Shown here: one piece after another, positions 9,746 to 11,697 of the stretch
Layout: each line of letters opens with the position of its first letter
Numbering within the stretch: the stretch's first letter is position 1
NCBI RefSeq assembly: GCF_900250075.1
Contig: NZ_LT977070.1
Coordinates: forward strand, 1,814,603 to 1,878,602
Direction of reading: 5' to 3'
Length of the DNA stretch: 64,000 nucleotides
From: Cupriavidus taiwanensis
GTDB taxonomy: Bacteria > Pseudomonadota > Gammaproteobacteria > Burkholderiales > Burkholderiaceae
Notes under the pieces: model-generated
Told to the model about the DNA's origin: nothing
What the model saw: only the letters and a program-made list of their open reading frames with translations
Database searches by the model: none
Program-made: the position numbers and the translations under genes

Positions 9746-9924
9746 GTCTGCTCCGGCAGGATTGGACAAACCGGTCTATGGACCTGGCCAGTAACATCTT
9801 ACGCGATTGCCGGCGCAGTGCTTGATTGCGGCGCGTTGGGCACGCATGGTCGCGCTGACCGCGACTGTGACGGCAAGTGCTGTCGCGGCCATCGGGCAAG
9901 TCCGCGCTGCGACCGGCCGCGCGG

Positions 9925-10140
9925 TCAGCCGTGTGACTCCTCGGGGGTGACGGCGGCGCGCAGGCGCAGGCCACCGTCGTGGCAATGGATATGCAGTTCG
10001 CCGTTCTCGCGCCTGGCTCGTGCCCAGCCCGCCGAGATCGCGTCCTCGAGCGTCGGGAACCGTTGCCGTTGGGGCGCGCTCTCGCAGTCCAGCGCCCAGC
10101 CAACGTCGGCCGGTGTAACGCGAATAATTCGCGCTTGCAT
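9925..10140 (-). CDS. small DUF2188-like protein
   Basis: 71 residues, MQARIIRVTPADVGWALD... The pattern (a strand with conserved GWAL, then FPTLEDAISAGWARARRENGELHIHCHDGGLRLR) resembles the DUF2188 family of small proteins whose function is unknown. No signal peptide or membrane segment. The ATG at 10140 has a good GGGAGG site; the longer in-frame start has none. It lies on the same strand as the LexA-box operon but 184 bp downstream of it, so cotranscription is uncertain. Confidence 0.75.
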   Translation of the reverse strand: MQARIIRVTPADVGWALDCESAPQRQRFPTLEDAISAGWARARRENGELHIHCHDGGLRLRAAVTPEESHG

Positions 10141-10324
10141 ATTGCCTCCCGGGGTCCGGGCCAAAAAAGCGCCCGCTACATGCAGCGGGCGGTCAAAGCC
10201 GAATGGGTGAACGCATCCGGCAGTGCGATATTGCCGCGCCGCAGTCGCCATAGCATATCCCTACTCAAGTGGTAGCGTGGCAGAAATGCATCACGTCTTG
10301 ATGCTTGGGAGCCCGGCCGGGACC

Positions 10325-10606
10325 TCAGGCGGGTTCCGCGCGATAGGCCGACCAGTAATAGTGGCTGTGCCGGTTATGGCGCGCGAGCTTCTTTACGATA
10401 AAGAGCCGAACCGTGCCCAGATGGCCGGCCTCGACCAGGACCTCATGGTGATTGGGCGCCTCCGCCGTGGCGCGCGGCAGGGTCTGCAGCGCGGCGGCGA
10501 CATGGTGTCCCTGCACTTGCGCCAGGATGCCGTTGGCCCCGGCTACCGGATACCCCGGCGTCGCGGCCGGCAGGTGGCAGCCGGCGGCCCGTTTGCTGTT
10601 GCCCAT
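10325..10606 (-). CDS. small hypothetical protein, second gene of a putative LexA-controlled pair
   Basis: 93 residues from the ATG at 10606, which is preceded by a strong GGAGGT site lying partly inside the end of the upstream gene. I do not recognise the family. The C-terminal third is basic and aromatic (VRLFIVKKLARHNRHSHYYW), with several histidines; the N-terminal part has one cysteine at residue 10. No signal peptide or membrane helix. It starts 2 bp after the stop of the zinc-ribbon gene, so the two form a tight operon. If the LexA box upstream works, this protein is made during the SOS response. Confidence 0.7.
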   Translation of the reverse strand: MGNSKRAAGCHLPAATPGYPVAGANGILAQVQGHHVAAALQTLPRATAEAPNHHEVLVEAGHLGTVRLFIVKKLARHNRHSHYYWSAYRAEPA

Positions 10607-10608
10607 GC

Positions 10609-10857
10609 CTACCTCCGCCCGGGCACGATGCGCACCCCGTCCCGGCAGACCTCGATCCGGGGCTGGTGGCCGTAAGCGCGCAGCAGCCGCACATCGTTCC
10701 TGGCGGACGCCGGGATCTGCTGGCGGCAAGCCAGGGCGCTGCGGCTGATGTGATAGGCGCCGCAAGCGGGGCAGTGATAGAGATAGCCGCGGGGCGCGGC
10801 GCGGGTGCGCTCGGCAGCAGCGCCGCAGAGGGGGCAGTTTGCGGGTTCGGGCGACAT
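10609..10857 (-). CDS. small zinc-ribbon protein behind a LexA box
   Basis: 82 residues. Two CxxC knuckles, Cys8/Cys11 (NCPLCG) and Cys29/Cys32 (YHCPACGAYHIS), form a classic zinc ribbon. The rest is a short helical and basic tail (RQQIPASARNDVRLLRAYG). The family is not known to me. The start codon is only 15 bp from a near-consensus LexA site, with a weak GAG-type ribosome site between. It is followed within 2 bp by a second small gene. DNA or RNA binding, or a protein adaptor, are both possible; nothing in the sequence decides. Confidence 0.75.
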   Translation of the reverse strand: MSPEPANCPLCGAAAERTRAAPRGYLYHCPACGAYHISRSALACRQQIPASARNDVRLLRAYGHQPRIEVCRDGVRIVPGRR

Positions 10858-10872
10858 GGGGGCTCGGGTTGA

Positions 10873-10892
10873 TACTGTATGGATATACAGTA
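10873..10892 (-). promoter_or_regulatory. LexA (SOS) operator and overlapping promoter
   Basis: TACTGTATGGATATACAGTA fits the gammaproteobacterial/betaproteobacterial SOS-box consensus (TACTGT-N8-ACAGTA) and is symmetric except at the centre. Read on the minus strand, the box overlaps a -10 like TATACT with a TTCCCA -35 sixteen bases upstream, so bound LexA would block polymerase. It ends 15 bp before the zinc-ribbon gene. The MarR-like gene begins about 208 bp away on the other strand and could in principle be affected. Confidence 0.8.
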
Positions 10893-11100
10893 TAGCGTCT
10901 CCGGCCGGTCTGGGAAGCGTCCGAAAACACGTGAGGTATTTCCAGATACCCAGGCCGTGCGCGGTCCCCGAAATGTCGTTTTATTCGTGGTAATTCACCG
11001 ATAAACTGTCAGGCCGAAGGCGGCGGCTGGCAGGTCGATCCGCCGCAACCGGGCCCCCGGACGCCTTGAATGCCGCCCCCAATCGAAAGGAAACTCCCGC

Positions 11101-11697
11101 ATGTCACGCAAGCCCGCCGAAAGCGCGCCCGCCGCCGCAGCTGCCGAAGCCGATGCCCGCGCCGGCCGGCCCGCTACCGCACTGTCGCGCGCCGCCGGCG
11201 CGAATATCGTGTCGTCGTCGCACCTGGTGTCGGTGCGCAGCCCCGAGCTGTCGGAATTCGAGTTCGGCCTGAACACCGCCTACAACGCCTACAGCCGCTG
11301 GGTGGTGCGCTGCATGGGCGCCGCCGGCGTGCGCGACCTGACCTTCCTGGACGTGCTGGTGCTGCACCACGTCAACCACCGCGGCCGGCCCAAGCGGCTG
11401 GCCGATATCTGTTTCGTGCTCAACGTGGAAGACACGCACCTGGTGACCTATGCGCTGAAGAAGCTGCAGGGGCTGGGGCTGGTGAGCGGGGAGCGGGTGG
11501 GCAAGGAGGCGACGTACTCGACCACCGAGGCCGGCGCGGAGGCGTGCTCGCGCTACCGCGAGATCCGCGAGCAATGCCTGACCAGCAATTTCACCGCGGG
11601 CAGCGAAGAGAATGCCGAGATCGGTGAACTGGCCCGGCTGATGCGGGTATTGACCGGCCTGTACGAGCAGGCGGCGCGGTCGGCAACGTCACTCTGA
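11101..11697 (+). CDS. winged-helix transcription regulator, MarR-like (COG5631 type)
   Basis: 198 residues. A disordered Ala-rich N-terminus (about 35 residues) precedes a MarR-like winged helix. The DNA-binding unit is around residues 75-150: LTFLDVLVLHHVNHRGRPKRLADICFVLNVEDTHLVTYALKKLQGLGLVSGERVGKEATYSTTEAG, with the recognition helix in NVEDTHLVTYALKKL and the wing in GKEATYST. A C-terminal helix (ARLMRVLTGLYEQAA) probably helps dimerise. The ATG has an AAGGAA site nine bases upstream. It is alone on its strand, 212 bp before purL. Target genes and ligand are unknown. Confidence 0.85.
   Translation: MSRKPAESAPAAAAAEADARAGRPATALSRAAGANIVSSSHLVSVRSPELSEFEFGLNTAYNAYSRWVVRCMGAAGVRDLTFLDVLVLHHVNHRGRPKRLADICFVLNVEDTHLVTYALKKLQGLGLVSGERVGKEATYSTTEAGAEACSRYREIREQCLTSNFTAGSEENAEIGELARLMRVLTGLYEQAARSATSL

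Follow-up and report, generated by a model that had tools for sequence, protein, structure and literature searches.

Within a 64,000-nucleotide stretch of the Cupriavidus taiwanensis genome (contig NZ_LT977070.1, positions 1,814,603 to 1,878,602; hereafter the window, with positions counted from its first letter), two small genes on the reverse strand stand behind a LexA (SOS) box, and it is this two-gene operon and its relatives that we describe here. The first gene, Z, occupies 10609..10857 (-) and encodes an 82-amino-acid (aa) four-cysteine zinc ribbon, as judged from its open reading frame (ORF), an alignment and a structure model. The second, P, at 10325..10606 (-), encodes a 93-aa protein with an MGN start that matches no known family, as judged from its ORF, library searches and a structure model. 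Both letters, like the H, D and E used below, are names coined in this analysis. The genes are 2 bp apart, and the Shine-Dalgarno sequence of P, GGAGGT (10611..10616, -; read from the sequence), overlaps the stop codon of Z; no clear Shine-Dalgarno was seen in the sequence before Z itself. The LexA box, TACTGTATATCCATACAGTA, lies at 10873..10892 as read on the coding (-) strand, 15 bp from the Z start, and was identified by a motif scan and by comparison with the boxes of relatives. It departs from the consensus TACTGTATATATATACAGTA at two positions, both central, and it overlaps the -10 element of a sigma-70-like promoter, TTCCCA-16-TATACT (10889..10916, -), which a promoter scan returned as the sole promoter-like site in 9900-11120 (shuffle mean 0.3). 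An earlier reading made from the letters of this DNA (the sequence-only reading) had already described the near-consensus box, the overlapping promoter, the 15-bp spacing and a second gene following after 2 bp with a strong ribosome site; the scans bear all of this out, and the range it gave, 10609-10892, left that second gene out.

The pattern CTGTATNNNNATACAG with no mismatches has its sole window match in the box at 10873-10892, and with up to three mismatches it has 4 window matches versus 4.9 expected. Across the 6.77-Mb genome, the 20-bp consensus with up to three mismatches is found at 9 sites, versus 0 for a reversed control pattern, and the window box with its two mismatches is among the best four of these. 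The bare core CTGT-N8-ACAG is hardly enriched (33 genome sites versus 29 for the reversed control), so it is the AT-rich extended form that carries the signal. As a control within the same genome, 14 regions around more AT-rich CTGT-N8-ACAG sites were taken and their nearest ORFs read. The boxed genes included those for LexA (with two boxes), RecA, ImuA and DinD, all above the Pfam and NCBIfam cut-offs, as well as one for a UvrA-family protein and one for a helicase of the Rad3/DinG type, whose Pfam domains scored above cut-off and whose NCBIfam equivalogs scored below; the remaining boxed genes either had no family match or lay outside the family search. The box core before a UvrD-family gene (L062) is the same 16-bp duplex as in the window box, in the opposite orientation. 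Naming that gene uvrD was considered and rejected, its NCBIfam uvrD and pcrA scores being far below cut-off, and Pfam supports a UvrD-family helicase. Because the motif precedes lexA, recA, imuA, dinD and others, it can be regarded as this genome's LexA motif. With the same type of operator upstream of the genome's own lexA and recA, and a CTGT-N8-ACAG operator overlapping the promoter at the window locus, we infer that the Z-P operon is, almost certainly, under LexA control. LexA would sit on the -10 element and keep the bicistronic operon repressed and, as established SOS biology predicts, DNA damage would lead through the RecA filament to LexA self-cleavage and to the transcription of Z and P.

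The sequence-only reading had staked its proposal on whether the box is kept at orthologous loci, and it was not refuted there: a box is present upstream of Z in 30 of the 30 loci that were fetched, the window locus counted. When these 30 loci are aligned, the box is the only conserved upstream block, and the DNA around it diverges. In a wider set that includes distant matches, a box is found at 46 of 55 Z matches; here, as in the count of 17 first-position P matches given below, repeats of the same place, or of the same genome under its public name, were omitted. Five of the Z loci (L012, L017, L021, L023 and L024) also carry, 55-56 bp further upstream, another LexA box with a perfect core.

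The cysteines C8, C11, C29 and C32 of Z are invariant in 34 sequences and make up, in alignment and model alike, the two CxxC knuckles of a zinc ribbon, which in the predicted structure (predicted local distance difference test score, pLDDT, 88.5) is followed by two short helices and a beta hairpin. Z resembles small zinc ribbons such as Pfam Zn_ribbon_3 and Lar in its CxxC-x17-CxxC spacing. It differs from them in scoring below the Pfam and NCBIfam cut-offs (the best Pfam match, Zn_ribbon_3, reaches 22.5 bits against a cut-off of 27, so that Z has no curated zinc-ribbon family there), in its weak PHROG matches, and in the extra C-terminal helices and hairpin that the model predicts. In the model of P (pLDDT 82.7) the N-terminus is of low confidence, and a helix and three beta strands are predicted, with pLDDT of 93-96 across residues 31-93 (in blocks of ten). 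Ratios of nonsynonymous to synonymous substitution rates, computed against ten orthologues from the same locus, are 0.11-0.25 for Z and 0.04-0.14 for P, values which indicate that both genes are under purifying selection. Pfam, PHROGs, NCBIfam and PADLOC identify neither as a known SOS gene, in agreement with the sequence-only reading, which had recognised no DNA-damage gene in them, and the two constitute at least two families without a name in these four collections. Among the matches listed, no title or abstract start pointed to published work describing these genes.

Relatives of both genes are found in Cupriavidus prophages, near one end and usually upstream of lysis genes, some of them by an integrase. 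When viral contigs were scanned with each of the two alignments, P was found at 22 loci on 22 contigs and Z at 2 loci, counts which are not all independent since some viral loci are near-copies (L189/L191, L206/L207). P is at most 5 kb from a contig end in 20 of the 22 (the exceptions being L194 and L204), four of these contigs being shorter than 17 kb. A LexA box precedes P or its unit in 18 of the 19 loci having upstream sequence; L192, L197 and L208 are cut off upstream and stand outside the 19. Within the flanks, similarity to a spanin or endolysin appears downstream of P at 19/22 loci, DUF2188 follows P at 12/22, and an integrase is present at 4/22. PHROGs confirmed the integrases of L207 and L190, the spanins of L207 and L194, the endolysins of L194 and L196 and a DnaB-like helicase in L204, while Pfam confirmed ligase and DUF2188 in L207 and ligase, integrase and Dus in L149, which is a named C. 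pinatubonensis chromosome. Some cassettes, for example those of L190, L200, L206 and L207, lie inside a prophage between phage genes, as a moron does. In L149, L190, L200 and L207 the cassette stands beside an integrase and a dus gene, which recalls the dusA-associated islands, described as highly diverse with the integrase alone common to all (Farrugia et al. 2015, PMC4482086); cargo of the Z/P type is not mentioned in the islands as summarised there. Isolated phage records yielded no match for P and one weak match for Z (34.5% identity, E 2e-3), and among plasmid records 4 carry P and 3 carry Z, all of them from Cupriavidus and including the C. metallidurans CH34 megaplasmid record.

Tum of phage 186 is a LexA-controlled antirepressor, and Z and P might be of that kind, inactivating a phage repressor on damage, with the chromosomal copy acting in trans on resident prophages. 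The occurrence of P on 22 viral contigs agrees with this, as do the small size, direct LexA control and place towards one prophage end that the genes share with the Gifsy antirepressors as described in PMC3121763; they differ from the latter in being partly linked to repair genes, in being kept outside prophages as well and in having no known repressor target. We nevertheless consider this explanation unlikely: purifying selection acts on the window copy and on its ten orthologues from the same locus, next to which no prophage gene was seen, and many prophage copies share their stretch with DUF2188, SRAP or ligase. In L204, moreover, a gene with helix-turn-helix and S24 peptidase domains stands just before the cassette, and since its product is probably a self-cleaving repressor, an antirepressor would be superfluous there.

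Divergent from the window operon, and outside it, a winged-helix (HTH_27/MarR-like) gene at 11101..11697 (+) is followed by purL and serves as a landmark. On the other side, a terminator-like hairpin with 9 pairs, CGCCCGCTGCATGTAGCGGGCG then CTTTTTT (10170..10191, -; hairpin scan), ends the operon after P, being one of 3 terminator-like sites in the scanned stretch versus 0.5 expected, and directly past it lies a DUF2188 gene (9925..10140, -; start set at ATG 10140), which is probably outside the Z-P transcript. The same-locus operon is present in 11 genomes, with the winged-helix gene and purL adjoining in 11/11 and DUF2188 in 10/11. An unrooted tree of 70 P proteins was built from the 100 columns that were kept, and because there are only 100, many of its branchings are unresolved. 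In it the 11 copies from the purL locus group as a single clade (100/99), the nearest neighbours of this clade are L013 and the viral-contig copy L187, and viral copies are dispersed throughout (14 changes). The window copy is probably a prophage-type cassette that the host has kept beside purL. A move out of a prophage into the chromosome would be the simpler reading of the tree, short of proof.

The operon structure, the LexA box and the same core surroundings in 11 genomes would also be expected of a purely chromosomal SOS effector, for which the sequence-only reading had offered the roles of cell-cycle brake, nuclease regulator or toxin-antitoxin pair. What stands of that proposal is the LexA-boxed two-gene unit with a CxxC-CxxC ribbon; no family evidence points to any of the three roles, and relatives occur in prophages, mixed with the chromosomal copies in the tree. 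Z and P are, furthermore, not always kept together as a toxin and its antitoxin would be: boxed Z is found without P (e.g., L079, L080 and L084) and boxed P without Z (e.g., L100, L102 and L106), and their being found apart, each with its own box, argues against an obligate pair. We regard a purely chromosomal effector as very improbable.

Z and P belong to a larger set. Their neighbours include further families behind LexA boxes, namely H, D, E and SRAP. H proteins (84-101 aa) are found in 48 of 60 genus genomes, and relatives lie beside P in the viral contigs L188, L189, L191, L192 and L204; the 86-aa copy in the window's own genome (L065:2701-2958 (-), C1:1608300-1608557) has a LexA box of its own. 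D has 96 aa, and the one member tested matches Pfam DUF2471; E has about 128 aa, and two tested members gave no family match. Neither H nor E has a Pfam match. The arrangements seen include Z-P, Z-P-H, Z-E-SRAP, P-E-SRAP, H-P-SRAP, D-H-P and lone P or Z, and in part of the Cupriavidus sets SRAP, DUF2188 and an ATP-dependent ligase come next. The sequence-only reading, in proposing a new SOS effector, had the LexA-boxed unit right and missed this larger shuffled set with its partial links to SRAP, DUF2188, ATP ligase and prophage ends. Such variable, shuffled content and a prophage-end place are typical of phage cargo, and together with the two or three Z/P copies in several genomes they could suggest factors for host takeover or inter-phage competition, timed by damage and blocking host replication, division or superinfecting phages. 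That is a quite unlikely explanation, given that PADLOC gave no match and no toxin-like family was found, and the copy at the purL locus, having been retained for so long, suggests that the host benefits, although shutting out phages would itself be a benefit.

SRAP proteins include YedK and HMCES. In the 60 genomes, 9 of 129 SRAP rows have a Z, P or H match no more than 2.5 kb away, versus 0.29 expected for uniform places, a few of the 129 rows still being pieces of one gene; for comparison, P is found at that distance or less from 33 of 56 Z places, versus 0.05 expected. These counts use one row per gene where a match was split (three Z and one P second pieces were dropped) and exclude four sub-cut-off SRAP rows, one of which (G039) is beside P. 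SRAP is in the same unit in relatives such as L023, L084, L108 and L109, and it is absent from the unit at the window locus. Gene neighbourhoods have been reported to link SRAP, ATP ligase and Ku with two zinc-ribbon-like domains (Aravind et al. 2013, PMC3765255); from DUF159-Ku neighbourhoods that paper describes two domains, Zn-chelating and uncharacterised. The sets described here are like those SRAP-centred SOS neighbourhoods in that SRAP occurs together with zinc-ribbon-like proteins and an ATP-dependent ligase. They are unlike the neighbourhoods as presented in PMC3765255 in that the unit, preceded by a LexA box, starts with the small genes, which are shuffled and often lie near prophage ends, and in that Ku, which is present in 56/60 genomes, is 5 kb or less from Z, P or H in one case alone (compared by eye). 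That single case is a broken Ku gene at G020:C1:884967-885468, about 3.2 kb from the P of a LexA-boxed D-H-P unit (L099), and it may echo the SRAP-Ku link of PMC3765255.

It is from this gene company, SRAP and ATP ligase, that a role for Z and P can be inferred. As described in PMC9436759, SRAP crosslinks abasic sites in single-stranded DNA. The Z ribbon and its basic partner P would act in the same setting as abasic-site protection by SRAP and ligation, to the benefit first of the induced prophage and afterwards of the host. The reading that we favour on balance is of a LexA-controlled accessory operon of prophage type, which the host has retained beside purL and which probably aids DNA-damage tolerance. 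The weakest step in it concerns molecular activity, and we suggest tentatively that Z and P may be accessory factors for damaged or single-stranded DNA. More speculatively, Z, P, H, D and E could form a genus-wide, LexA-switched toolkit of interchangeable small proteins, largely spread by prophages, that acts with SRAP and ATP ligase as an alternative tolerance pathway for abasic-site and single-stranded DNA damage and from which bacteria like the present one have domesticated parts as stand-alone SOS effectors; this broader idea is possible but doubtful. To our knowledge, SRAP's bacterial partners are poorly known, and shuffled boxed genes near prophage ends, partly linked to SRAP and ligase, provide candidate partners in a natural series of combinations. 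Prophages are likewise indicated as a way for SOS regulons to acquire new members, one such unit having been retained at a single chromosomal locus in 11 genomes.

Several observations weigh against the favoured reading. At the window locus, no phage gene was found among the neighbours examined (9.2-16 kb), the GC content of the operon equals that of its surroundings, and the tree, being unrooted, does not show the direction of transfer. The ends of viral contigs can include host DNA, one viral locus with upstream sequence (L190) has no box before P, and SRAP and ATP ligase accompany the viral P loci in minority arrangements (6/22 each). In the genus, 120 of the 129 SRAP rows have no Z, P or H match inside 2.5 kb, and the window's own genome has two SRAP genes, both away from the operon and with no perfect AT-rich box in the fetched stretches. 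Box conservation has its exceptions as well: 9 of 55 Z matches have no box within 150 bp (L086, L089 and seven distant matches that are 36-42% identical to the nearest Z query), as is the case for 6 of 17 first-position P matches, four of which match only from an inner residue on. Lastly, neither structure model matched a known fold.

Two hypothetical genes, hypA and hypB, have been predicted as LexA-regulated in beta-proteobacteria (Sanchez-Alberola et al. 2012, PMC3323433). They are like Z and P in both respects, and the species set includes R. eutropha, R. metallidurans and C. taiwanensis; hypB, unlike Z/P, is stated there to be Burkholderia-only, and hypA as presented there may or may not be one of the families described here.

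Other LexA-boxed loci came to light in the same genome. Identical 20-bp LexA boxes lie 17 kb apart at C2:2313482-2313501 and C2:2330696-2330715 (L071 and L072), and the ORFs tried beside them had no NCBIfam match. A protein of 94-102 aa (L073:3038-3343 (+), C2 near 2365430) stands behind two tandem LexA boxes, the first of which is one mismatch from the 20-bp consensus; it has no Pfam or NCBIfam match. A 742-aa protein behind a near-consensus LexA box (L064:732-2957 (-), C1 near 1083039) has a GNAT domain, its PIN and EVE matches being sub-cut-off. A LexA-boxed 126-aa protein (L067:3012-3389 (+), C2 near 648380) has no Pfam or NCBIfam match, and a relative of it is encoded about 3 kb from Z in L155.
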